A stretch of 64,000 bases of DNA from Salinicoccus sp. Bachu38 (GTDB taxonomy: Bacteria; Bacillota; Bacilli; Staphylococcales; Salinicoccaceae), in the NCBI RefSeq assembly GCF_038561955.2, contig NZ_CP138333.2, positions 744,001-808,000 on the forward strand, given 5' to 3'. The position numbers and the translations under genes are program-made. Within the stretch, counting starts at the first letter, position 1. Each line of letters opens with the position of its first letter. Positions 29,442 through 41,256 of the stretch are shown one piece after another. A model generated the notes under the pieces. It was not told the DNA's origin. It did no database searches and saw nothing but the letters and a program-made list of their open reading frames with translations.

Positions 29442-29679
29442 GGTTGATTCTCCTTTAATCAGAGGGAGTCATTTATTCCAGTTTTGTTAAAAAAAGAACG
29501 ACCCTTCATCATTACTTTTATTATCCTCTTCTGGAAAAAACAATGCAAGATGATCCACTCTATGTATTCAGTGCTATTATCTTCCCAAGGGAAGATTTTA
29601 TTTTTAACATTCATAGCATGAAAGCCGGTCTACTGATAATATGGAAAGTAAAGTGCATAACTATGACGGGAGGTCCATC

Positions 29680-30420
29680 ATGTCCGGAAGCAACTTCAGC
29701 GTATCAAATGAAAGTATCATCAGGAACACCATCCAGGAACGGATTCTGAGCAATGAACTGAAACCAGGGGACAGGCTGCCGAGTGAAAACGTGCTGGCGG
29801 ATGAATTCGGGATGAAGCGGATTGTGGTAAGGAATGCACTGGTGCAGCTCGAGAAGATGGGGCTGCTTGATAGCCGGCAGGGAATCGGGCGGTTTGTGAA
29901 GGAGAAGCGCCCGGTGATTGAACTGGATATGAGCGGCAGGCGGAGCTTTTCCGACAAGATGCGGGAACAGGGTGTGCATTACGAAAGCAGGGTGATCTTT
30001 GCGGGATATGCAACAGAAAATGAGCAGGAGAAGTACCGCCGGGCACTTGGGATGGACGATGATGTCTCCATTTTTAAAGTGGCGCGGCTGCGCATCGTCA
30101 ACCATACACCCTGTGCCATCCATTTTTCCTATATACGTGAGGATGCGGTACCTGATATTAATGAAGAAACGAAGCAGCTCGCCTCCATGTTCAACTACTA
30201 TGGGAAGAATGGCTACACGAACCTGAAGTCGATGGATACACATATCCATACGGCGTTTCCGACATTGGATGAACAGCGACATCTGGAGTGCGAGGAGCTG
30301 GTGCCGCTGATCGTGTATGAATCGCAGACGATGGATCTCGATACGAACCGAATACTGGAACAGACACGGATACTCTACCGGAGCGACCTTTTCAAGCATG
30401 CGCTCGGGTCCGTGAACTGA
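29680..30420 (+). CDS. phnF: GntR/UTRA regulator of the phosphonate cluster (PhnF-like)
   Basis: A 246-residue GntR regulator. The winged helix is IRNTIQERILSNELKPGDRLPSENVLADEFGMKRIVVRNALVQLEKMGLL. From about residue 90 a UTRA ligand domain follows (RSFSDKMREQGVHYESRVIF, ARLRIVNHTPCAIHFSYI). PhnF-type repressors of this HutC subfamily control phn operons, and this gene directly precedes phnG in the same orientation. GGGAGGT at 29668-29674 sets the start at 29680, although the frame opens at 29641. A terminator separates it from phnG, so the structural operon has its own promoter. Confidence 0.82.
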   Translation: MSGSNFSVSNESIIRNTIQERILSNELKPGDRLPSENVLADEFGMKRIVVRNALVQLEKMGLLDSRQGIGRFVKEKRPVIELDMSGRRSFSDKMREQGVHYESRVIFAGYATENEQEKYRRALGMDDDVSIFKVARLRIVNHTPCAIHFSYIREDAVPDINEETKQLASMFNYYGKNGYTNLKSMDTHIHTAFPTLDEQRHLECEELVPLIVYESQTMDLDTNRILEQTRILYRSDLFKHALGSVN

Positions 30421-30425
30421 TTGGG

Positions 30426-30452
30426 GGATGACTTTACGTCATCCTCTTTTTA
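30426..30452 (+). terminator. Terminator between phnF and phnG
   Basis: Stem GGATGAC-TTTAC-GTCATCC followed by TCTTTTTAT. Confidence 0.85.
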
Positions 30453-30474
30453 TATTCACAAAATCAACCGGCTC

Positions 30475-30500
30475 TTTACAGATTTTACAGACTCTTAAAG
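30475..30500 (+). promoter_or_regulatory. TTTACA-type repeats upstream of phnG (possible Pho box)
   Basis: TTTACA at 30475, TTTACA at 30484 and TTAAAG at 30495. Spaced TT(A/C/T)A(C/T)A hexamers are the PhoP-binding pattern of Bacillus, but the spacing here (9 and 11 bases) is only approximate, so this is tentative. Confidence 0.3.
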
Positions 30501-30548
30501 GTCACCAGCTTGGCAACAAGTTAGGATGTAGTTAAGGGAGGCATGATG

Positions 30549-30968
30549 ATGAATAAAAAACGCTGGACATCTCTATTTATAAAATACGGCAAGGAGGAGG
30601 CCACCGATTTCCTGGATACATACCGGAATGCAGTGCCTTTTCAGATCATCTCGGAACCGGCTGAAGGGCTGACGATGATCAAGGTCAGGGAGCATGCGGA
30701 GAACAGTCTTTTCTATATCGGGGAAATGCTGGTGACGGAAACGAAGATCAGACAGGAGCAGACGGTCGGGCTTGGCGTGGTGAAGGGCTCCGACAGGAAT
30801 CTCAGCATGGCAGTCGCCTTCATCGATCTGTGCTTCAGTCTGGATGTGCTCGCGGATGAACTGGAACAGATTCTGGAATCGCTGGAAATGAAAGAAGCGG
30901 CATATATCAAGGAACGGACGCAGAAGATACTTAAAACCAAAGTGGATTTCGACATGATGGCAGAATAG
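30549..30968 (+). CDS. phnG: C-P lyase subunit PhnG
   Basis: A 139-residue PhnG. With PhnH, PhnI and PhnJ it forms the carbon-phosphorus lyase core complex. PhnG and PhnI act in coupling phosphonate to ATP ribose (displacing adenine). Recognisable segments are RWTSLFIKYGKEEATDFLDTY, LTMIKVREHAENSLFYIGEMLVTETKI and GLGVVKGSDRNLSMAVAFIDL. Three ATGs lie in a row; GGGAGG at 30535-30541 favours the third (30549). It is the first gene of the phnGHIJKML operon, 12 bases from phnH. Confidence 0.88.
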   Translation: MNKKRWTSLFIKYGKEEATDFLDTYRNAVPFQIISEPAEGLTMIKVREHAENSLFYIGEMLVTETKIRQEQTVGLGVVKGSDRNLSMAVAFIDLCFSLDVLADELEQILESLEMKEAAYIKERTQKILKTKVDFDMMAE

Positions 30969-30979
30969 GAGGCATATAT

Positions 30980-31540
30980 ATGACAACACTGGTACATGAG
31001 ACACAGAGACACTACCGGGAACTCGTGGATCTCTTCAGCCGGCCGGGGGAGGTCAGGCGTTCGAAGTTCGATACACCGAACTTCACTTCATACTCGGATG
31101 CAGTGCTGGCGACGGTGCTGACACTGTTCGACAATGAGATATTCTTCAATACGGCAGATCGCAAGGATGCGGATGAGTTTCTGACACTGACGGGCGGCCA
31201 GCATACAAAAGATTTTGGAAAGAGCGACTTCATCGTCGTGAAGGCCGAAGAACTGAATGCAGGACTGATGGAAGGGGCAAGGATCGGCACTTTGGCCTCT
31301 CCTGAAAAGTCGACGACATTCATCATCGAAGTGGCATCCATCGGGGAAGGGCACGCGTACATACTCCAGGGTCCCGGCATAAAGACGGCGAACACGCTTG
31401 AGATGACGCTTGACCCGGAATGGATCGTGTGGCGCAACACGCTGTGCAGTGAATTCCCCCTCGGGGTCGATCTGGTCATCATCGACCGGACGGACCGGAT
31501 GGCGGTCATACCAAGAACAACGACAGTGGAGGTGATGTAG
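30980..31540 (+). CDS. phnH: C-P lyase subunit PhnH
   Basis: A 186-residue PhnH, a structural core subunit of C-P lyase needed for triphosphate transfer. Conserved pieces are HYRELVDLFSRPGEVRRS at the start, AVLATVLTLFDNEIFF, GTLASPEKSTTFIIEVASIG, YILQGPGIKTANTLEM and the C-terminal LCSEFPLGVDLVIID. The ATG follows AGGAGGCAT. Its stop is directly followed by the phnI ATG. Confidence 0.9.
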   Translation: MTTLVHETQRHYRELVDLFSRPGEVRRSKFDTPNFTSYSDAVLATVLTLFDNEIFFNTADRKDADEFLTLTGGQHTKDFGKSDFIVVKAEELNAGLMEGARIGTLASPEKSTTFIIEVASIGEGHAYILQGPGIKTANTLEMTLDPEWIVWRNTLCSEFPLGVDLVIIDRTDRMAVIPRTTTVEVM

Positions 31541-32614
31541 ATGGGCTACGTTGCAGTGAAGGGCGGTACGAAGGCCATCGAGGCATCGGTTGAAATGTAT
31601 CGGAATAAATCGCAGCACGACGAGGAGCTGGATGTCGGCGTGGTCAGGACGCACATGAATCAGCTGATCAACCAGGTCATGTCGGAAGCGAGCCTTTACG
31701 ACCGCGATCTTGCGGCACTGGCAGTCAGGCAGGCCGAAGGGAATATGGAGGAGGCGGTGTTCCTTCTCCGTGCCCATCGGTCGACGCTGCCGAGGCTCCA
31801 TTATTCCACGGTGACGAACACACGCGACATGTTCGTCGAACGCCGTGTGTCGGCAAGCTTCAAGGATATCCCGGGTGGACAGATCCTCGGTGCATCCCCG
31901 GACTTCACCCATCGTCTGCTGGATGATTCGGATGTATATGACAGTGGAGCGCTCCACGAGGAGACCGATGTTTCTGCATACGGCTATCGTCTCGATGACC
32001 TGCCGAAGGTGGTCGACTACCTCGAGCAGGAGGGGCTGTTCGAAAAATACCCGGAAGATGACAGGGAACCGGATGACATCACGAAGCGAAGCATCGAATT
32101 CCCGAGTTCGAGAAGCGAGCGGCTCCAGTCGCTGACACGCGGACAGACGGGAGCAGTGACTTCACTCGGATATGCAGAAATCAGGGGATATGGCTATTCC
32201 TCCCATCCGAACATCGGCGAAGTGCGGGTCGGCCAGCAGCCGGTCCACATCGATCCATTCGATGATGGGGATGCATACTATGTCGGTGACGTAGAACTGA
32301 CGGAAGTGGAGGCATTCATGCCAGCGGACGGTGCAGAGGAAGAATCAGAAGGCGGCCAGGAGAAGACATTCAGAATCGGCTACGGCCTCACATTCGGTCA
32401 GAATGAAACGAAGGCCATAGCGATGAGTGTGCTCGACTACAGTCTGAGCCACCCGATCGAAGGGGTGGCGACATGCGATGACGAGTTCGTCCTCCTCCAT
32501 GTGGATTCCGTGGAATCGACCGGATTCATCTCGCACTTGAAGCTGCCGCACTATGTCACCTTCCAATCCGTACTGGACCGGGTGAGACAGACGAAAGGAG
32601 AGAAATCGGAATGA
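31541..32614 (+). CDS. phnI: C-P lyase subunit PhnI
   Basis: A 357-residue PhnI, the nucleosidase-like subunit that, with PhnG, H and L, makes ribose 1-methylphosphonate 5-triphosphate from ATP and phosphonate. Start MGYVAVKGGTKAIEAS is typical. Further hallmarks are SLTRGQTGAVTSLGYAEIRGYGYSSHP, GEVRVG, YGLTFGQNETKAIAMSVLD and the C-terminal GFISHLKLPHYVTFQSVLDR. Length is normal, nothing appears missing, and the gene overlaps phnJ by four bases. Confidence 0.93.
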   Translation: MGYVAVKGGTKAIEASVEMYRNKSQHDEELDVGVVRTHMNQLINQVMSEASLYDRDLAALAVRQAEGNMEEAVFLLRAHRSTLPRLHYSTVTNTRDMFVERRVSASFKDIPGGQILGASPDFTHRLLDDSDVYDSGALHEETDVSAYGYRLDDLPKVVDYLEQEGLFEKYPEDDREPDDITKRSIEFPSSRSERLQSLTRGQTGAVTSLGYAEIRGYGYSSHPNIGEVRVGQQPVHIDPFDDGDAYYVGDVELTEVEAFMPADGAEEESEGGQEKTFRIGYGLTFGQNETKAIAMSVLDYSLSHPIEGVATCDDEFVLLHVDSVESTGFISHLKLPHYVTFQSVLDRVRQTKGEKSE

Positions 32615-33453
32615 AACAGAACTATGCCTTTCTCGATGAGAACTCCAAGAAGGAGATCAGACGCAAAACATTGAAGGCCATCGCAATCCCCGGCTACCAG
32701 GTCCCGTTCGCTTCGAGGGAACTGCCGATTGCACGGGGCTGGGGGACCGGCGGACTGCAGCTGACCCTCTCCCTTGTCGGACAAAGCGATGTGCTGAAGG
32801 TGATCGACCAGGGCGCCGACGAATCGGTCAATGCCGTCAACATCAGGAAGCTGATCCAGGATACGACATGTGTGCCGGATACCATTCATACGAGTGAGGC
32901 GACACTCATCCAGTCGCGCCACCGTGTGCCGGAAGTGCCGCTCGAACCCTACCAGATACTCGTGCTCCAGGTGCCGCTGCCGGAACCGCTCCGGCCGGTC
33001 GAACCGAGCGAGCGCATCACCAAGCAGCTCCATGCGGACAGGGAGTACAGCGGCGCCTGGCTCAGGCTGTTCGAGCAGATCATGAAGTACGGCTCGATTA
33101 CGGATGATGCGGACTATCCCGTCCTCGTCAACGGCCGCTATGTCATGGCACCGAGTCCGATTCCACGGTTCGATAATCCGAAGCTCGATGACAATGACGG
33201 ACTCATCCTGCTCGGGGCCGGACGCGAGAAGAAGATATATGCCATCCCGCCATACACGAAGGTGAGCTCGCTCGCATTCGACGATCATCCATTCGAAGTT
33301 GAATCCTTCGATGACGTATCCTGCCGGGAGTCCGGACTCACAGGTGTCTACATGGACGAGCTGGTCGACGACGAGACGGGGGAAACGTATTACGTGACGA
33401 ACGATACAAGCTATATGCTTGAACAACTCAACAAGGCAGGTTCTGTGCGATGA
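32611..33453 (+). CDS. phnJ: C-P lyase subunit PhnJ with degenerate Fe-S cysteine motif
   Basis: A 280-residue PhnJ, normally the radical-SAM subunit that breaks the carbon-phosphorus bond. It aligns with E. coli PhnJ along its full length, including the radical glycine (Gly28 in AIPGYQVPF), GWGTGGLQLT, VIDQGADES, LIQSRHRVPE, VNGRYVM, PSPIPRFDNPK and GAGREKKIYAIPPYT. However, of the four essential C-terminal cysteines (E. coli Cys241, 244, 266, 272) only the first remains (Cys238). The others are Ser241, Thr263 and Met269, with spacing unchanged. The only other Cys is Cys87. A standard 4Fe-4S cluster cannot be bound by this motif. The rest of the operon is intact. Confidence 0.92.
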   Translation: MKQNYAFLDENSKKEIRRKTLKAIAIPGYQVPFASRELPIARGWGTGGLQLTLSLVGQSDVLKVIDQGADESVNAVNIRKLIQDTTCVPDTIHTSEATLIQSRHRVPEVPLEPYQILVLQVPLPEPLRPVEPSERITKQLHADREYSGAWLRLFEQIMKYGSITDDADYPVLVNGRYVMAPSPIPRFDNPKLDDNDGLILLGAGREKKIYAIPPYTKVSSLAFDDHPFEVESFDDVSCRESGLTGVYMDELVDDETGETYYVTNDTSYMLEQLNKAGSVR

Positions 33454-34292
33454 AGACAGCAGATAATTTGGCGATCAGCGTCAGCAACGTCAGCAAATTC
33501 TATGGGGACAGGTGCAGCTACTGTGTAGAGGACGATGCCGTGCTCAACAGGAACATGTGCCCCGAGTGCCATACTGTCTTCGCCTGCGATGATGTCTCCT
33601 TCGACCTCCATAACGGCGAGATCCTCGGCATCGTGGGCGAGAGCGGCAGCGGCAAGAGCACACTGATGAAGATGCTCTACTTCGACCAGACGCCTTCGGA
33701 AGGCGAATACCGTATATCGGGATTCGATGGGCGGCAGACGGATGTCTTCGGATTATCCAGCCAGGCGAAGCGGCAGATACGGAACGAGATCCTCGGCATG
33801 GTTTACCAGAACCCGGTATATGGGCTGAAGATGGAGTTCTCCTCCATGAGCAACATTGCAGAAAAGCTCATTGCAAGCGGCTCCCGTCATGTCGGCGGGA
33901 TGACGGAGGTCGGCGACCACTTCCTCGGAAAGGTCAACATCCCACTCAGCCGCAAGTTCGATCCACCGAAAAACTTCTCGGGCGGGATGCAGCAAAGGGT
34001 CCAGATCGCCAAGGCGCTCTCCAACTATCCGCCCGTACTGCTGCTCGATGAAGTGACGACCGGCCTCGACCTGTCCGTCCAGGCGGACGTACTCGAGCTG
34101 ATCAAGGAAATCCAGCGGGAGCTCGGCATCAGCATGATCGTCGTCTCCCATGACCTGGCCATCATCCGCATGCTATGCGACCGGACGATGGTCATGCTCG
34201 ACGGCAGTGTCATCGAGACGGGCATCACCGACCAGATTCTCGAGGACCCGCAGCACGCCTACACGCAGCAGCTCGTATATTCAATCCTTTAA
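33450..34292 (+). CDS. phnK: C-P lyase ATP-binding subunit PhnK with four-Cys insertion
   Basis: A 280-residue ABC-type ATPase that docks on the C-P lyase core. Motifs: Walker A GESGSGKST, signature FSGGMQQRVQIAKAL, Walker B PVLLLDEVTTGLDLSVQ, switch VVSHDLA. Between the first strand (SVSNVSKFYG) and the next (FACDDVSFDLHNGEI) it carries an insertion with CSYC (22-25) and CPEC (37-40), shaped like a zinc ribbon, which E. coli PhnK lacks. It overlaps phnJ by four bases and is separated from phnM by a short ribosome-binding region. Confidence 0.9.
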   Translation: MKTADNLAISVSNVSKFYGDRCSYCVEDDAVLNRNMCPECHTVFACDDVSFDLHNGEILGIVGESGSGKSTLMKMLYFDQTPSEGEYRISGFDGRQTDVFGLSSQAKRQIRNEILGMVYQNPVYGLKMEFSSMSNIAEKLIASGSRHVGGMTEVGDHFLGKVNIPLSRKFDPPKNFSGGMQQRVQIAKALSNYPPVLLLDEVTTGLDLSVQADVLELIKEIQRELGISMIVVSHDLAIIRMLCDRTMVMLDGSVIETGITDQILEDPQHAYTQQLVYSIL

Positions 34293-34306
34293 GGGAGGGC
34301 CTGATT

Positions 34307-35503
34307 TTGAAAGCAATCATAAACGGCAACATCATCACCGAAACGGAAGTCATGCACCATGCAGCAGTGATTATGGAGGACCAGTACATCGTGGACATCC
34401 TTCCGATGGATGAAGCGGAAGAGATGCTCGATGGGACGGCGGAAGTCATCGATGCGAACGGCGGATACGTGTCCCCGGGATTCATCGACATCCATTCCGA
34501 CTATATCGAAGGCATCGTCGCCCCGCGGCCGACGTCCCTCATGGACGTCACGATCGGCATCCGTGAATCGGAACGCATACTCAGCTCCCACGGCATCACG
34601 ACCATGTTCCATTCACTGTCGATCTACCGGGAGGACCTGTTCGGACACAAACCCATCCGGGAACCGCAGAATGTGGAGAAGCTCATCCAGGCGATCGCCC
34701 GGACACACAATGAGAAGCACCTCATCCGCCACCGTCTGCATGCCCGGTTCGAGCTGGACGCAGTAGAACAGCTGCCGGCGCTGAAGGCGCATATCGAAGC
34801 GGGCAATGTCCATCTGCTCAGCTTCATGGACCACACCCCTGGACAGGGGCAGTACCGCAACATTTCGGTATACCGGAACACGATGAAGAGCTACCAGAAC
34901 ATGAGTGACATCGAAATCGATCAGAAGATGCTCGAGAAGCAGGACTATGAACAAATCGGCTATGAGGAGATGAAGACGGTGGGCGATATGGCCCGTGCCC
35001 GCAACATCGCAGTGGCCTCCCATGATGACGACCATGTCGGACGCATCGATCTCAACGGGACGCTTGGGGCGACGATCAGCGAATTTCCGATCACCATCGA
35101 AGTGGCGAAGTATGCCCATCAGAAGGGCATGCATACAATCGCCGGTGCACCGAACATCATGCTCGGCGGCTCCCATTCCGGGAATCTGAATGCAGCGGAT
35201 GCCATCAGGGAGGGCTGCATCTCCATATTGTGCAGCGACTACTATCCGGCAGCGATGCTGCATTCCATCTTCAAACTTCATGATGAGTGCGGGCTGCCGT
35301 TGGAAGAGGCGATGAAGCTTATCACCCTCAATCCGGCCCGGGCGGTCAATATGGACCATGAAATCGGTTCGGTCAGAGTCGGCAAGAAGGCCGATCTCAA
35401 CGTCATCCAGTTCAACGGAGACTATCCGGTCATAACGGAATGCATCGTTGATGGGGCCATCATTTCACAATATCACTATAGAATCGATGAGGAGGCAGAG
35501 TGA
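34307..35503 (+). CDS. phnM: PhnM, alpha-D-ribose 1-methylphosphonate 5-triphosphate diphosphatase
   Basis: A 398-residue amidohydrolase-superfamily enzyme that releases pyrophosphate from the C-P lyase triphosphate intermediate. Conserved: GFIDIHSDYIEGIVAPRPTSLMD, ITTMFHSLSIY, IRHRLHARFE, LLSFMDHTPGQGQYRN, VASHDDDH, GAPNIMLGGSHSGN and LCSDYYPAAMLH. The frame is open from 34175 inside phnK, but GGGAGGGC at 34293-34300 points to a TTG start at 34307 (KAIINGNIITE). It ends by overlapping the phnL start. Confidence 0.92.
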   Translation: MKAIINGNIITETEVMHHAAVIMEDQYIVDILPMDEAEEMLDGTAEVIDANGGYVSPGFIDIHSDYIEGIVAPRPTSLMDVTIGIRESERILSSHGITTMFHSLSIYREDLFGHKPIREPQNVEKLIQAIARTHNEKHLIRHRLHARFELDAVEQLPALKAHIEAGNVHLLSFMDHTPGQGQYRNISVYRNTMKSYQNMSDIEIDQKMLEKQDYEQIGYEEMKTVGDMARARNIAVASHDDDHVGRIDLNGTLGATISEFPITIEVAKYAHQKGMHTIAGAPNIMLGGSHSGNLNAADAIREGCISILCSDYYPAAMLHSIFKLHDECGLPLEEAMKLITLNPARAVNMDHEIGSVRVGKKADLNVIQFNGDYPVITECIVDGAIISQYHYRIDEEAE

Positions 35504-36195
35504 TGCTGAGCGTAGAGAATATATCCAAATCATTTACCATCCACCACCTCGGACAGACCCGGTCGGCGATCTCCGGCATCGACCTGCATGTCGCAAAGGG
35601 CGAGTTCCTCGGCATCGTCGGGAAGAGCGGCAGCGGCAAGTCGACCATCCTGAAGAGCATCTACGGTACATACAGGCCGGAAGCGGGTGCCATCATATAC
35701 GACTCCAGGGACGAAGGGCCGGTGAACATGATGGAGATGGCAGACCATGACCTGATCCGTCTGAGAAAGACGGAAATCGGCTACGTCTCCCAGTTCCTCA
35801 AAGTCATGCCCCGGACGACGAGCCTTGAACTGGTCACCCAATCGCTGCTCGAAATGGGAAAGGACCCGGAGGAAGCCCGGCAGAAGGCGGAAGCGGCACT
35901 CAGACACTTTGATATTCCGGAGAGTCTGTGGGACAACTATCCAAACACATTCAGCGGCGGAGAAAAATTGAGGCTGAACATCGCCCGGGCCACGGTCAAA
36001 TCCCCCCGGCTGCTGCTGCTCGACGAACCGACGGCATCGCTCGACAACGACTCCAAGCTGAAAGTCAGGGATGCCATCGCCAAGCTCAAGGCGGATGGTA
36101 CGACGCTCATCGGCATCTTCCATGACCTTGAGTTCATGGAGGGGCTGTGCGACAGGGTGTACGATATGACGAGCGGGAAAGCGGGGAAGATGTGA
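35503..36195 (+). CDS. phnL: C-P lyase ATP-binding subunit PhnL
   Basis: A 230-residue ABC-type ATPase partner of PhnK and PhnI. Motifs: Walker A GKSGSGKST, Q-loop ETEIGYVSQFLKVMPRTTSLELV, signature FSGGEKLRLNIARA, Walker B LLLLDEPTASLD and switch GIFHDLEFM. The ATG overlaps the phnM stop (TGATG) behind GAGGAGG; a GTG three bases earlier is less likely. Its own stop overlaps the PHP gene in the same way, showing tight coupling. Confidence 0.92.
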   Translation: MLSVENISKSFTIHHLGQTRSAISGIDLHVAKGEFLGIVGKSGSGKSTILKSIYGTYRPEAGAIIYDSRDEGPVNMMEMADHDLIRLRKTEIGYVSQFLKVMPRTTSLELVTQSLLEMGKDPEEARQKAEAALRHFDIPESLWDNYPNTFSGGEKLRLNIARATVKSPRLLLLDEPTASLDNDSKLKVRDAIAKLKADGTTLIGIFHDLEFMEGLCDRVYDMTSGKAGKM

Positions 36196-37028
36196 TGGCG
36201 CGGATTGATCTGCACGTCCACAGCACATTATCCGACGGCGGGGACACCATCGACCAAGTGCTCGAGGCTGCGCACAAGCGGGGTGTGAAGATGCTGAGCT
36301 TCGTGGACCATGACATGACGCTGACCTACCATGTGGCAAAAAGGAAACCGGCCGCCCGCGACATCACTCTGGTCCCCGGGATAGAACTGTCCGCCTATGA
36401 CTTCAAACGGGACAGGAAAGTCCATGTGCTCGGCTATGACTATAACCTCGATGGCAGCCAAATGCAGCAGTTGACCGTTCCGCTGCTCGAACGGCGGCAC
36501 CAGCATTCACTCTGGCAGGTCGAACAGATCAGGCAATATGGCTTCGACATCGACGTGGAGCAGGTCGAGGCGCAGCTCTTGCCCGGGCAGACGGTCTACA
36601 AGCAGCACATCATGGCGGCATTGACGGATGCACACTATGCGACGGATGAATACCGGTCTTTGTACCGTGTCCTTTTCAAAGGAGATGGTCCTGCCGCCGG
36701 CGATATAGAGTATATGGATGTGCACGATGCCGTACGCGCGGTGAAGGCGGATGGCGGCATGGCCGTCATTGCCCATCCCGGTCAGCTCGACAGCTACGAT
36801 CTGATCGAAGAACTCGTTGAACTTGGCATCGACGGCATCGAGCAGTACCATCCGGATCATACGGAAGACGATGTGAGACGGGTGGGCGAACTGTGCGACA
36901 GCTACGGGCTGGTCACAACCGGCGGGTCGGACTACCATGGCGACTTCGGTGTACCGGTGGAGATCGGCATGGATGCGGATTTGTTAACGCATCGTCCATT
37001 TGATGAAGTTCCCTTTAAGAAATGTTAA
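36195..37028 (+). CDS. PHP-domain cyclic phosphodiesterase (PhnPP-like)
   Basis: A 277-residue PHP-family phosphoesterase. Metal ligands are visible in RIDLHVHSTLSDGGD, SFVDHDMTL, LVPGIELSA, VIAHPGQLD and TGGSDYHGD. A PHP enzyme of this type in Eggerthella lenta phn operons (PhnPP) converts 5-phosphoribosyl 1,2-cyclic phosphate, the C-P lyase product, to ribose 5-phosphate and phosphate. That would replace PhnP and PhnN, neither of which is present. The ATG at 36195 overlaps the phnL stop; the frame opens earlier at 36147. The role is assigned from operon position and family. Confidence 0.82.
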   Translation: MARIDLHVHSTLSDGGDTIDQVLEAAHKRGVKMLSFVDHDMTLTYHVAKRKPAARDITLVPGIELSAYDFKRDRKVHVLGYDYNLDGSQMQQLTVPLLERRHQHSLWQVEQIRQYGFDIDVEQVEAQLLPGQTVYKQHIMAALTDAHYATDEYRSLYRVLFKGDGPAAGDIEYMDVHDAVRAVKADGGMAVIAHPGQLDSYDLIEELVELGIDGIEQYHPDHTEDDVRRVGELCDSYGLVTTGGSDYHGDFGVPVEIGMDADLLTHRPFDEVPFKKC

Positions 37029-37109
37029 GTAAGCGTAAATGGTGTTTATTTATCGAACCCAATCGATTTTAATGGAATAGAATCAAAAAAATGAAGGAGT
37101 TGCATATCA

Positions 37110-38156
37110 ATGAAGAAATGGTTGGTTGGCCTGGCATCACTGTCCCTTTTACTCTCCGCATGCAGTAATGATTCGGAGGGAGAGGCGAATGCCGAAGGCG
37201 CAGATAGCAGCGGAGAACCGCTTACGGTCGTCTGGTATCCGAATGAATCCGGAAACGAACTCTCTGACGCGAGGGATGAGATCGGCAGCATCATAGAAGA
37301 TGCCACGGGCCAGGAAGTCGAACATGAACTGACGACGGACTATGCCATCGCGATAGAGAGCCTCGTCAATGACAATGCGGACCTTGCATTCACCGGAGCT
37401 GAAGGCTACGTACAGGCGAAAGAAAGGAACGACGCGCTCACTCCACTTGCGGTGCCATCCGGCCCAAGCGGCACGGAAGAAGATGCCCTGTACCACAGCT
37501 GGTTCGCGGCACTGCCTGAAAACATGGAGCAGTATGAAGATGGAAACGGTGAATATGCACTCGATAATTTTGAAGGCAAAAAGTTCTCCTTCGTCTCACC
37601 ATCCTCCACATCCGGTTTCAAGGTGCCGGGCAGCACGCTGGTCAGCCACTTCGGTGAGCAGGAAGGCTATGAAGATCTTGAAATCGACCAGATTGCAGAA
37701 AACGGCAATGTATTCAGTGAAGTGATGTTCGGCAACTCCCACCAGGGCTCGGCAGTAAATCTGCTGAACGGCAAAGCGGACCTCGCAGCGTTCTGTGATA
37801 CATGCCTCGACAACTACGTCGAAGTGTCGGAAGGCGAGGAAAACGCACCGGGTGCCATCTATACGGTTTCTGAAGGTGCAGCGGCACCATTCGAGAATCT
37901 TGCAGGCGAAGAGTTCGGCATCCTTTCCGCCACACCGGTACTGAACGCGCCATTCGTCGCCAACGGCAATACATTGAGCGAAGAACAGATCAAGGAACTG
38001 CAGGATGCCTTCACTTCCGAGGAAGTGGCGAACAACGAGAACATCTTCCTGCCTGAGGATTCCGAAGAGACGGGCCTCTTTACAAAATCTGCGGATGAGC
38101 AGTTCGTTGTCGTGGAAGATGAATGGTTCGACCCGATCAGGGAACTTGGCCAATAG
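37110..38156 (+). CDS. phnD: Phosphonate ABC transporter substrate-binding lipoprotein PhnD
   Basis: A 348-residue lipoprotein: signal peptide with lipobox LSAC (Cys18), an acidic linker, then the PhnD/SsuA-type binding fold (LTVVWYPNESGNELSDARDEIG, VEHELTTDYAIAIESLVNDNADLAFTGAEGYVQ, FSFVSPSSTSGFKVPGS, NLLNGKADLAAFCDTCLDNY). It captures phosphonate outside the membrane for PhnC/PhnE. Start follows GAAGGAG. It is 81 bases behind the PHP gene, and a terminator hairpin separates it from phnC. Confidence 0.92.
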   Translation: MKKWLVGLASLSLLLSACSNDSEGEANAEGADSSGEPLTVVWYPNESGNELSDARDEIGSIIEDATGQEVEHELTTDYAIAIESLVNDNADLAFTGAEGYVQAKERNDALTPLAVPSGPSGTEEDALYHSWFAALPENMEQYEDGNGEYALDNFEGKKFSFVSPSSTSGFKVPGSTLVSHFGEQEGYEDLEIDQIAENGNVFSEVMFGNSHQGSAVNLLNGKADLAAFCDTCLDNYVEVSEGEENAPGAIYTVSEGAAAPFENLAGEEFGILSATPVLNAPFVANGNTLSEEQIKELQDAFTSEEVANNENIFLPEDSEETGLFTKSADEQFVVVEDEWFDPIRELGQ

Positions 38157-38168
38157 GGAATGAAAATG

Positions 38169-38198
38169 AAGGGAGCCGCACTCCCTTTATTTATTTTT
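38169..38198 (+). terminator. Intercistronic terminator/attenuator between phnD and phnC
   Basis: Stem AAGGGAG-CCGCA-CTCCCTT followed by TATTTATTTTT. It probably lets more phnD than phnC-phnE transcript accumulate. Confidence 0.8.
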
Positions 38199-38210
38199 GG
38201 AGGGATACGG

Positions 38211-39083
38211 ATGAGTGTTAAAACACTTGATAGAACAGACAGGGCAGTGGAGAAGGAAACGGATGAAGTCATCTTTCCTTTCTTCGAGGAAGCGGAAAAA
38301 CCAAAAAGGCGCACTCTGCCGACGATCATGGAAATAAAGAGCATCGACAAGTCCTACACCGGAAACAAGCGCGTATTGAAGGACATTTCATTCAACATCG
38401 GGAAGGGGGAGCTGCTCTCCATCATCGGGCCATCGGGCGCCGGCAAGTCGACGCTGCTCCGGGTCATCAACCGCATGATCGAACCGAGCGGCGGTGCCAT
38501 CCATTTTGAAGGGCAGGACACACTCGCGATGCGCGGGCGCGGTCTGCGCCGCATGCGGACGGACATCGGCATGATCTTCCAGCACTACAACCTGGTGGAC
38601 CGGCTCAGTGTATTCGAGAATGTACTGCATGGTCTGCTCGGGTACAAGAACAGCCTCCAAGGCATATTTTCCATGTATACGGAGGATGAAAAGCGGCGGG
38701 CACTGGACATCATTTCGGAACTCGGCATCGGGGAGCACATCTATAAGCGCTGTGATGAACTGAGTGGTGGACAGAAGCAGCGGGTCGGCATCGCCCGCGC
38801 CCTCATCCAGGATCCGAAGATCATCCTCTGCGATGAACCGATCGCTTCGCTCGACCCGAACGCATCCCGCGTCATCATGGAGTACCTGAAGCGGATATCA
38901 GAGGAGCGGGGCATCACGATTATCGTCAACCTCCACCAGCTGGAAGTGGCAAGGAAGTATTCCGACCGCATCATCGGGCTCAATGATGGCACTGTCGTCT
39001 TCGACGATGCGCCGGATGCAATCACTTCAGAATCGGTCAGCCGGATCTATGGATCCCAGCTGGACGAACTGATTACGGAATAG
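38211..39083 (+). CDS. phnC: Phosphonate ABC transporter ATPase PhnC
   Basis: A 290-residue ABC ATPase: Walker A GPSGAGKST, signature LSGGQKQRVGIARAL, Walker B KIILCDEPIASLDPN, switch VNLHQLE. The PhnC hallmark RVINRMIEPSGGAI is present. A GGAGGG ribosome-binding site sets the start at 38211, which gives a charged N-terminal extension of about 39 residues before the ABC fold begins (MEIKSIDKSYTG). Shorter PhnC proteins would start near 38328, where no ribosome-binding site is visible. Confidence 0.92.
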   Translation: MSVKTLDRTDRAVEKETDEVIFPFFEEAEKPKRRTLPTIMEIKSIDKSYTGNKRVLKDISFNIGKGELLSIIGPSGAGKSTLLRVINRMIEPSGGAIHFEGQDTLAMRGRGLRRMRTDIGMIFQHYNLVDRLSVFENVLHGLLGYKNSLQGIFSMYTEDEKRRALDIISELGIGEHIYKRCDELSGGQKQRVGIARALIQDPKIILCDEPIASLDPNASRVIMEYLKRISEERGITIIVNLHQLEVARKYSDRIIGLNDGTVVFDDAPDAITSESVSRIYGSQLDELITE

Positions 39084-39093
39084 GCGGGTGGCT

Positions 39094-39906
39094 ATGGAAA
39101 AGACAAACCCACAGCATGTAGTTGATGTGAACATCATCAGAAAGAAGCACATTCGGCTGTCCGTCATTGCGCTGATCATACTCGCACTGATCATCCTTTC
39201 CGGAATGGTCACAGAGTATGATCATATCGAAGGACTTGTTGCGATACCGGCTGCACTTGAATGGCTGCTCGCCAACATGTTCTTCAGCGGCAGCACCCTC
39301 AGCCGGCTGCCGACCGTACTGAACCTGCTCTGGCAGACGGTGCTGATCTCCGTCGTGTCGACGACGACCGCCGCCTTCTTTGCGGTCATCTTCGCCATCA
39401 CCGGCTCGAAGCTCACTGCAGTCAATGCGCCGCTGATGTACATATCCAAACTCGTGGCCTCCATCAGCCGGAATGTTCCCGTCGTCGCCTGGGCGCTGAT
39501 CCTGGTCATCAGTTTCGGAACGAATGCCGCGACAGGATTCCTGGCACTCTTCTTCACGACATTCGGCTTCCTGGTCCGTGCATTCATCGAGACGATTGAT
39601 GAAGCATCCAGTGACACCGTCGAGGCGCTGAAGGCGACGGGGGCGACATACCCGCAGGTGATTGCCAAGGCCGTCATTCCGGAAAGCATGCCGCAGATGT
39701 TCAGCTGGGTTCTCTTCATGATCGAAACGAACATACGCAGTGCCACACTGGTGGGGCTTCTGACCGGCACCGGCATCGGATACCTGTTCGACCTCTATTA
39801 CAAGCAGCTCGACTATGAGATGGTGTCGCTCATCACGCTCGCCATCGTCATCGCCGTGCTCCTGATCGAATGGGTATCCAACTGGATAAGGAGGGAGATA
39901 CTATGA
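39094..39906 (+). CDS. phnE: Phosphonate ABC transporter permease PhnE (first copy)
   Basis: A 270-residue membrane permease with about six transmembrane helices and the ABC-permease EAA loop (DTVEALKATGATYPQVIAKAVIPE). PhnE motifs include SKLVASISRNVPVVAWALI and LLTGTGIGYLFD. A GTG at 39088 is possible but GGCGGGTGG better serves ATG 39094. Its stop overlaps the second permease start (ATGA), consistent with a PhnE1-PhnE2 heterodimer. Confidence 0.9.
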   Translation: MEKTNPQHVVDVNIIRKKHIRLSVIALIILALIILSGMVTEYDHIEGLVAIPAALEWLLANMFFSGSTLSRLPTVLNLLWQTVLISVVSTTTAAFFAVIFAITGSKLTAVNAPLMYISKLVASISRNVPVVAWALILVISFGTNAATGFLALFFTTFGFLVRAFIETIDEASSDTVEALKATGATYPQVIAKAVIPESMPQMFSWVLFMIETNIRSATLVGLLTGTGIGYLFDLYYKQLDYEMVSLITLAIVIAVLLIEWVSNWIRREIL

Positions 39907-40727
39907 TGGACAGCCATCTGGAAACCACAGGCAACGGAAAGATCAAGATCAATAAGGCGAACAGGGGACAGATGCGGTTCCGTGCACTGATGATCGGGAC
40001 GCTCCTCTTCACCATCATCGGGTTCTTCCTGCTGGACTACCAGGGACTCGAACTTGTCCCGGCCATCATCGGTACACTCGATAATCTGAAGACGATGTTC
40101 CTCACGCCCCAGTTCAATCAGGTCACATTCGGTACAGCCATGTGGCAGGTGCTTGTGACACTATCACTCGCCTTCCTCTCCACCGTCATCGGTGCCGTCA
40201 TCTCGCTGTTCCTGGCCTTCGGCACGGCTATGAACCTGTCGAAGCCATGGCTCAGCATGACGATAAAGACATTCATCACAGTCATCCGTGCCGTGCCGAC
40301 CGTACTGTGGGTACTCATCTTTGCCATCGCGGCGGGACTCGGTTCCGTCGCCGCCGTCATCGGGATGCTGTTCCATTCCGTTGCCTACCTTGTCAAAGCA
40401 TACTCCGAGGCGTTCGAGGAGATTGATGCAGGCAAGATTGAAGCACTGAGAGCCACAGGATCCAGCTACACCCACATCCTGTTCCAGGTCGTCCTGCCCC
40501 AGACCAAATCATATCTGATCGCATGGACATTCCTGCGTTTTGAGACCAACTTCGGCATCGCCGTTGCCATGGGCGCCGCAGCGGGTGCAGGAGGCATTGG
40601 CTACGAACTCTTCATGTCCAGTACATTCTACTATGACATGCATGAAGTCGGCATGATCACCTACCTTATCCTCATTGTCGCCATCCTTCTTGAACTTGTG
40701 GCGAATAGATTGAAGCAGGCAGCTTAG
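39903..40727 (+). CDS. phnE: Phosphonate ABC transporter permease PhnE (second copy)
   Basis: A 274-residue permease paralogous to the preceding one, with about six membrane helices and the EAA loop GKIEALRATGSSYTHILFQVVLPQ. Also typical are FITVIRAVPTVLWVLIFA and AAAGAGGIGYELFMSS. The ATG overlaps the first permease stop after AAGGAGGGAG. A strong terminator follows, closing the phosphonate region. Confidence 0.9.
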   Translation: MMDSHLETTGNGKIKINKANRGQMRFRALMIGTLLFTIIGFFLLDYQGLELVPAIIGTLDNLKTMFLTPQFNQVTFGTAMWQVLVTLSLAFLSTVIGAVISLFLAFGTAMNLSKPWLSMTIKTFITVIRAVPTVLWVLIFAIAAGLGSVAAVIGMLFHSVAYLVKAYSEAFEEIDAGKIEALRATGSSYTHILFQVVLPQTKSYLIAWTFLRFETNFGIAVAMGAAAGAGGIGYELFMSSTFYYDMHEVGMITYLILIVAILLELVANRLKQAA

Positions 40728-40833: not shown

Positions 40834-41256
40834 ATGACCATCCAAGGCATCAATCATCTGTTGTTTTCCGTGTCCGACCTTGAGAAGTCCGTCACATTCT
40901 ATAGAAACGTCTTTGGGGCAGACCTGAAAGTGAAAGGGAGGACCACCGCCTATTTCGATCTGGACGGCATATGGCTCGCTTTGAATGAAGAGCGGGGAAT
41001 TCCAAGGAATGAAATTCGCGACTCCTATACACATATCGCTTTCTCGATTGATGAGGTGGATTTTGACGATATGGTGAAGAAGCTACATTCCTGCAATGTC
41101 AATATACTGGAAGGTCGGAAGCGGGACACCCGGGATCGACGCTCAATCTATTTCACTGATCCGGATGGTCATAAATTTGAATTTCATACCGGCACCATGA
41201 AGGACAGGCTTGAGTATTATAAGGAAGCCAAGCCCCATATGGAGTTTTATGAATAG
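40834..41256 (+). CDS. fosB: FosB-type metallothiol transferase (VOC family)
   Basis: A 140-residue glyoxalase/VOC-fold protein that matches FosB closely in sequence plan: [24 protein letters not shown] (metal His7), [30 protein letters not shown] (metal His), [17 protein letters not shown] (metal Glu) and the C-terminal [16 protein letters not shown]. FosB opens the fosfomycin epoxide with bacillithiol. The phn operon next door may be coincidental, though fosfomycin is itself a phosphonate. The ATG follows AAAGGGGA. Confidence 0.88.

Follow-up and report, generated by a model that had tools for sequence, protein, structure and literature searches.

The phn operon and its PhnJ

The window, a 64,000-nucleotide stretch of contig NZ_CP138333.2 from Salinicoccus sp. 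Bachu38 (positions 744,001 to 808,000 of the forward strand), contains a complete C-P lyase operon at 29641-40727 on the plus strand, which runs from the regulator through PhnE2 in the order F-G-H-I-J-K-M-L-PHP-D-C-E1-E2. Its genes, and the four phnJ codons that correspond to the hallmark cysteines of E. coli PhnJ, are listed below in window coordinates.

29641..30420, plus strand: PhnF-type GntR/UTRA regulator (PF07702 and PF00392)
30543..30968, plus strand: phnG (PF06754, 91.7 bits)
30980..31540, plus strand: phnH (PF05845, 133 bits)
31541..32614, plus strand: phnI, with the zinc ligands His222, His332 and His337 kept (PF05861, 429 bits; alignment to E. coli PhnI)
32611..33453, plus strand: phnJ, with one of the four hallmark cysteines (PF06007, 440 bits; alignment to E. 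coli PhnJ)
33322..33324, plus strand: Cys238 codon TGC, equivalent to E. coli Cys241, the sole hallmark cysteine kept (sequence and alignment)
33331..33333, plus strand: Ser241 codon TCC, equivalent to E. coli Cys244 (sequence and alignment)
33397..33399, plus strand: Thr263 codon ACG, equivalent to E. coli Cys266 (sequence and alignment)
33415..33417, plus strand: Met269 codon ATG, equivalent to E. coli Cys272, the thiyl cysteine (sequence and alignment)
33450..34292, plus strand: phnK, with an N-terminal C-x2-C ... C-x2-C knuckle (TIGR02323, 211 bits, below the cut-off of 303)
34304..35503, plus strand: phnM, putative start codon (TIGR02318, 404 bits, over the cut-off)
35500..36195, plus strand: phnL (TIGR02324, 262 bits, over the cut-off)
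36195..37028, plus strand: PHP-domain phosphodiesterase (best match NF041661, 300 bits, below the cut-off of 500)
37110..38156, plus strand: phnD-type binding protein (PF12974, 138 bits)
38160..39083, plus strand: phnC-type transporter ATPase (open reading frame; equal place in relatives)
39088..39906, plus strand: phnE1 permease (open reading frame; equal place in relatives)
39870..40727, plus strand: phnE2 permease (open reading frame; equal place in relatives)

The original prediction had described the operon as otherwise intact, and Pfam and NCBIfam matches to phnG, H, I, J, K, L and M bear this out. The PHP-domain protein is likely to act on phosphoribosyl 1,2-cyclic phosphate, as judged from its profile match, and the names phnC, phnE1 and phnE2 are presumed from position. 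Directly downstream of phnE2, at 40834-41256, lies a FosM/FosB-like fosfomycin resistance gene, which scores 247 bits with the FosM model (just under the cut-off of 255) and 240 bits with the FosB model (over the cut-off of 171).

The phnJ gene is an ATG open reading frame of 280 amino acids that overlaps phnI and phnK by 4 bases each. Its product matches PF06007 over the full length, covering 2-274 of the 275 profile positions, and scores 440 bits where 25 are required; it aligns with E. coli PhnJ (7z15_D) with an E value of 1.7e-98. In this alignment Cys241, Cys244, Cys266 and Cys272 of E. coli pair with Cys238, Ser241, Thr263 and Met269, so that codons and alignment agree on the substitutions originally predicted; the accompanying claim of a gap-free alignment from DDHPF onwards needs correcting, as a one-residue gap precedes Cys241, and the spacing from Cys241 to Cys272 is exact. 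The canonical motif C-x2-C-x21-C-x5-C (Cys241, 244, 266 and 272; E. coli numbering is used for these positions below) is thus reduced to Cys241 alone. A count confirmed that the whole protein has just two cysteines, and the radical-site Gly32 is retained as Gly28, again as predicted. The window protein is accordingly a PhnJ family member that fails the radical-SAM motif. A profile search of the source genome (1 contig, 2.62 Mb) returned this single PhnJ match and no second copy.

An AlphaFold2 model of the window PhnJ (pLDDT 79) reproduces the E. coli PhnJ fold with a TM score of 0.83 to 7z19_H, and the mean pLDDT in ten-residue blocks from 231 to 270 is 85-91; on these two grounds the model indicates that the cysteine site has lost ligands but retained its fold. 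The E. coli C-P lyase and the window's system are alike in family, fold, operon partners, Gly32 and the residues of the zinc/PRcP site, whereas the window PhnJ lacks three of the four hallmark cysteines, and the window PhnK carries a knuckle that E. coli PhnK does not have.

Distribution, origins and selection of cysteine-depleted PhnJ

We found phnJ in 17 of the 33 genomes searched in the window's family (source genome included), and all 17 read C-x2-S ... [T/A]ND-T-S-[YF]-M. Cysteine loss in this family is more than chance, and its sharing by relatives excludes the sequencing error that had been named as a possible refutation; a second canonical phnJ, named likewise, was not found in the source genome, and PhnJ is present exactly once in each of eight further depleted genomes (named or MAG loci). 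Across the window's order phnJ occurs in 20 of 157 genomes, the three outside the family showing the same depleted state, and the depleted rows of the Staphylococcus order include Staphylococcus equorum (L090) and Macrococcoides caseolyticum (L091). A class-wide draw (INTERMEDIATES) yielded phnJ in 25 of 398 genomes; outside the window's order PhnJ was canonical there except in two genomes (L024, with a stop inside, was left out), which have Thr for Cys244 and Met or Leu for Cys272 and keep Cys266. Within a second Bacilli family (f6), whose members include Caryophanon tenue, Solibacillus palustris and a Ureibacillus MAG, 54 of 261 genomes carry phnJ, and 21 of the 53 read are depleted, 19 of them in a two-cysteine state and 2, of one genus, with Thr at 266 too. 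Three MAG contigs, labelled Anaerolineaceae, Bacillota and Erysipelotrichaceae subject to the usual binning doubt, are depleted as well. The canonical PhnJ of other Bacillota, about 60-75% identical to the window PhnJ, shares with it a largely equal operon order and the PhnK knuckle but has all four cysteines, and the depleted Bacillota rows are nested among the canonical ones.

The 189 PhnJ rows compiled, a sample centred on the window and its kin rather than a census, comprise 130 with all four cysteines and 59 without both Cys244 and Cys272, 38 of which also lack Cys266; Cys241, Gly32, Arg107, His108 and Gln124 are invariant in 189 of 189. In a 167-row set (118 with all four cysteines, 49 depleted), every depleted row keeps Cys241 and has lost both Cys244 and Cys272, Cys266 is kept in 21 of the 49, and no row among the 167 has lost just one of Cys244 and Cys272. 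The 189 rows contain ten identical-sequence pairs, five canonical and five depleted, in which a genome was reached twice. Omitted before counting were L001 (the window again), L024 (internal stop) and L157 (cut); L042 was counted by its PhnJ part alone, L216 (canonical) stands outside the 189, and a broken PhnJ of genome G628 was left out. For the ligand, knuckle, dN/dS and cysteine-column counts ten rows were dropped, namely six doubles and the canonical L105, L122, L131 and L154, whose genomes are present elsewhere as short loci; the PhnI histidine counts keep all rows, doubles included.

Some unusual frames were encountered along with these rows. In L042, from genome G239, phnJ and phnK are naturally fused into a single open frame of 665 codons, and the cysteines are canonical; no other phnJ was found among the six genomes searched in its order. 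Broken PhnJ frames are those of G205 (L024), with an internal TAG, and G628, in two overlapping pieces (G628:C2:180998-181812).

A second depleted group came from control rows drawn out of plasmid records. PhnJ matches were present in 215 such records, and among the 45 records listed 16 were clearly nearer to this group by identity, eight alphaproteobacterial and eight from Thermus. From these, two Thermus records were read, along with eight places spread over seven of the alphaproteobacterial records; the thirteen other plasmid PhnJ read were all canonical. At the four hallmark positions, the PhnJ of Thermus thermophilus HB8 pVV8, which is described as enriched in phosphonate metabolism genes (PMC5529391), has Cys-Thr-Val-Met, and the PhnJ of an alphaproteobacterial plasmid lineage (Haematobacter, Nitratireductor, Rhizobium, Sinorhizobium, Mesorhizobium and Microvirga) has Cys-Ser-Leu/Val-Gly/Ala. 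These proteins resemble the window PhnJ in the loss of cysteines and in keeping Cys241 and the zinc-site residues, but they lie on a separate branch, replace Cys272 with Met, Gly or Ala, and are accompanied by a PhnK without the knuckle. The annotated plasmid records label them as ordinary C-P lyase PhnJ, and none of 41 translated second-group proteins contains an internal stop. Cys241 of PhnJ is the only cysteine conserved at 80% across PhnG, H, I, J, K, L and M of this group (6 operons; 5 for PhnK), so that a cysteine-ligated Fe4S4 cluster would hardly fit inside the Thermus/alphaproteobacterial complex; in Thermus strain SNM1-1, PhnG to PhnM together contain just two cysteines.

Canonical and depleted PhnJ occur together in Haematobacter massiliensis (on one plasmid) and Microvirga sp. 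VF16 (on two plasmids), pairs that would fit a division of labour. On the Haematobacter plasmid NZ_CP035515.1 the canonical and depleted phnJ (L203 and L196) lie about 18 kb apart, and NZ_CP069355.1 (Microvirga sp. VF16 pMVF16-1) has nine PhnJ-matching places, of which the two read (L208 and L214) are both depleted. An unannotated PhnJ-like stretch is also present in Pseudomonas phage Y12 (OQ572413.1, 6928-7809), with 49% identity to the L203 PhnJ.

PhnJ trees were built on residues 1 to about 231, excluding the cysteine region. The first tree, of 114 rows, gathers the 33 depleted Bacillota-type rows in a single clade (SH-aLRT 87) nested among canonical rows; the depleted state needs one change there, against a shuffled-label mean of 29. 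The larger tree (135 rows, with plasmid rows) needs three changes against a shuffled-label mean of 36: the 9 rows from Thermus and alphaproteobacteria group together (SH-aLRT 98), and the depleted Bacillota-type rows split into 18 rows of the Staphylococcus order plus the three MAGs (SH-aLRT 89), apart from 15 f6 rows. The starred branches of this tree force two changes, yet a single clade was not rejected when an AU test was run on 70 selected rows, 26 of them depleted (p 0.138, lnL difference 25). Overall, the trees allow one to three origins of the cysteine loss.

For Bacillota-type depleted PhnJ the median dN/dS was 0.064 (64 pairs, dS 0.1-1.5), and three pairs of the second group gave 0.185, 0.114 and 0.161; the canonical rows, at 0.28 to 0.52, offer no comparison with the depleted rows, since their pairs have diverged much further and saturation of dS is likely. 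The pN/pS of depleted Bacillota-type PhnJ was 0.176 in region 230-272 against 0.111 in residues 1-229, and in canonical rows the cysteine region is likewise faster than the rest (0.554 against 0.365). Depleted loci of the window's order and of f6 follow the arrangement F-G-H-I-J-K-M-L-PHP-D-C-E1-E2 up to where the stretch or contig ends, except that an F match is absent from L076, L080, L170, L171 and L173. The three depleted MAG contigs keep G-H-I-J-K-M-L-PHP, with deviations in an F match on the opposite strand (L099), reordered transporter genes (L111) and no transporter match (L128). These results indicate that the depleted phn operons are not decaying and that their PhnJ is under strong purifying selection. 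The original prediction had named operon decay as a further refutation, and decay is contradicted by the complete operons and these low ratios.

The zinc site and the search for substitute ligands

The E. coli complex has a zinc site between PhnI and PhnJ, formed by PhnI His328 and His333, plus His219 in the open state, and bound 5-phosphoribosyl 1,2-cyclic phosphate is held there by PhnJ Arg107, Gln124 and His108 (PMC9947105). By alignment, His219, His328 and His333 correspond to His222, His332 and His337 of the window PhnI. Equivalents of His328 and His333 are kept in 43/43 Bacillota-type depleted, 6/6 Thermus/alphaproteobacterial depleted and 84/84 canonical rows, and that of His219 in 43/43, 6/6 and 83/84, respectively. 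Alignment thus indicates that the residues of the PhnI/PhnJ zinc and PRcP site are retained in both depleted groups.

We screened for positions that vary in step with the loss of cysteines, defined as a state present in at least 90% of 38 depleted Bacillota-type loci and at most 10% of canonical loci (52 to 71). Two such positions lie in PhnG, four in PhnI (90, 92, 95 and 233), two in PhnJ (243 and 269) and one in PhnM, with none in PhnH, PhnK, PhnL, PHP or PhnD; the reverse test adds PhnJ 241 and PhnI 224. At the latter, two residues past the zinc ligand His222, Thr has become Asn in 33 of the 38 loci, whereas Thr is unchanged in 6 of 6 loci of the Thermus/alphaproteobacterial group. Positions 90, 92, 95, 224 and 233 of PhnI (gene 31541-32614) therefore change together with the cysteine loss in Bacillota-type rows.

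No gained compensating cysteine was found in the nine proteins compared across the 38 depleted loci (PhnG, H, I, J, K, M, L, PHP and PhnD). The cysteines conserved at 80% in these loci are PhnJ 238, PhnK 22, 25, 37 and 40, PhnL 217 and PhnM 310, with none in PhnG, H, I or PHP. The idea of new compensating ligands was rejected.

The PhnK knuckle, C-x2-C ... C-P-x-C, lies at 33513-33569 of the window (Cys22, 25, 37 and 40); its four cysteines are invariant in 58 aligned sequences, E. coli PhnK being without it, and AlphaFold2 predicts it confidently as an insertion between strands 1 and 2. By pattern, all 38 depleted Bacillota-type loci have it, as do 68 of 71 canonical ones, the remaining three having no PhnK match, an unrelated ATPase picked, or a shorter loop. 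A migration of the cysteines to PhnK as a general replacement was rejected, as canonical Bacillota share the knuckle and the second group is without it.

Proposed bond cleavage without a PhnJ cluster

Sequence comparison shows that the cysteines are lost, that relatives share this loss, that the operon is intact, that selection is purifying and that the zinc-site residues are kept, and with these findings we consider it somewhat probable that depleted PhnJ belongs to a working C-P-lyase-type complex that acts at the PhnI/PhnJ zinc site without a PhnJ-bound cluster, the cleavage itself being putative. PhnI with PhnGHL would still join the phosphorus compound to ribose, PhnM would trim the ribosylated compound, and the zinc site would release 5-phosphoribosyl 1,2-cyclic phosphate, a product we infer because its likely enzyme is kept; release at that site would in turn mean bond cleavage without a PhnJ-bound cluster. 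The most likely route, to which we give on its own slightly less than even weight, would be non-radical, the ribose 2-OH attacking phosphorus with the help of zinc. As methyl is a poor leaving group, a shift of substrate is expected, favouring compounds with better leaving groups such as activated phosphonates, phosphate esters and perhaps phosphite, and Cys241 would have a structural role or act as a single thiol.

Several points count against this zinc-site reading. An unactivated C-P bond is chemically difficult to cleave without a radical, and the invariant Gly32 would be needless in non-radical chemistry unless structural. The NF041661 match reaches 300 of 500 bits, and the evidence from a cyclic-phosphate hydrolase is limited to Bacillota-type operons; the cysteine region evolves faster (pN/pS 0.176 against 0.111), although canonical rows behave alike. 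Reviews also describe the PhnJ reaction as a SAM-dependent radical reaction (PMC10574752; PMC7916636).

A radical route with Cys241 as the thiol is possible. In its full form, which we consider unlikely, depleted PhnJ would be a true radical C-P lyase with Gly32 and Cys241 as a glycyl/thiyl pair, the radical being installed by another protein (a radical-SAM activase or other source). A glycyl-radical enzyme started by a separate activase keeps at minimum one Gly and one Cys, and both residues are found in 59 of 59 depleted rows; the likeness to enzymes such as pyruvate formate-lyase ends there, as a radical role is putative here and no activase for depleted PhnJ was found with PF04055. PF04055 domains number 2 in seven and 3 in one of eight 99%-complete phnJ-bearing g3 genomes (in G019 a SPASM-domain protein gives the third match) and 1 in a ninth that is 81% complete, and both PF04055 proteins of g3 genome G017 are MoaA and HemW. 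Within the window's genus there is no enrichment, with 7-10 matches in six phnJ-free and 3-10 in six phnJ-bearing genomes. This PF04055 survey of 33 genomes, with complete counts for each genome, thus gave no candidate for a dedicated radical-SAM activase, non-canonical radical-SAM families lying beyond the reach of that profile. That the PhnK knuckle supplies a cluster in trans in Bacillota is highly improbable. It accompanies every depleted Bacillota-type PhnJ as a confidently predicted insertion, but is as common beside canonical PhnJ, extends to two haloarchaea, Thiothrix and Methylibium, and is absent despite a depleted PhnJ from both Thermus PhnK and three alphaproteobacterial PhnK read from annotated starts. 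Its C-x2-C/C-P-x-C motif also resembles what we take to be a zinc knuckle, which counts against a cluster role. In favour of a supply in trans, E. coli PhnK is touched by PhnJ Asp226, Asp228 and Asp229, which stand some 12 residues ahead of Cys241 (PMC9947105).

It is improbable, in our estimate, that PhnJ is catalytically dead and serves as a scaffold for the PhnGHI nucleosidase, with the operon used for an earlier step or for detoxification. The earlier steps are indeed carried out by PhnI with PhnGHL and by PhnM (PMC10574752), and an E. coli phnJ mutant still forms ribosyl intermediates (PMC3463581); yet Bacillota-type operons keep the likely hydrolase for the PhnJ product, and the zinc-site residues of PhnJ, which a scaffold would not need, are invariant. 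Early pseudogenisation or sequencing error, suggested by the three missing hallmark cysteines, has a negligible probability and is already refuted for the group: the loss is common to 59 of 189 rows across genera and phyla, with low dN/dS, intact operons and no internal stop in the 41 second-group proteins. The original prediction had left a choice between a dead enzyme and a different way to break C-P bonds. Its first branch is disfavoured by the 17/17 sharing, the complete operon and the strong constraint; the second fits as a reading of the sequence data, a change of substrate being as likely as new C-P chemistry.

For glyphosate, papers on Lysinibacillus sphaericus reportedly describe a route via sarcosine. 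AMPA still has its C-P bond. A Salinicoccus sp. is listed with AMPA as its glyphosate product (PMC7602795), and for that reason the record gives no support for a C-P lyase.

The four PhnJ cysteines have been described as conserved and functional (PMC11978286; PMC7916636) and were checked as support for methane production (PMC11978286), and phnJ has been called strictly conserved, with primers aimed at the four-cysteine region (PMC12413358). Among the matches listed in a literature search, whose coverage leaves out most subscription journals, no title or abstract start mentions a cysteine-depleted PhnJ. Rows without the full cysteine set are common (59 of 189, in a sample around the window and its kin that is not a census), which affects environmental phnJ surveys.

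The C-P lyase mechanism has been termed an unresolved conundrum (PMC9947105), and one puzzle is the distance of about 30 Å between Cys272 and the radical glycine Gly32 (PMC7916636), on which depleted PhnJ bears. A more far-reaching possibility, which we hold to be doubtful, is that C-P cleavage needs neither a PhnJ-bound Fe4S4 cluster nor Cys272, one thiol (Cys241) and the zinc site sufficing to cleave true phosphonates, a solution perhaps evolved more than once; if true, the zinc site would be the real bond-breaking site, and the E. coli cysteine site an accessory for activation or oxygen sensing. Whether complexes found in nature function in the absence of these cysteines could settle at which site the bond is broken.
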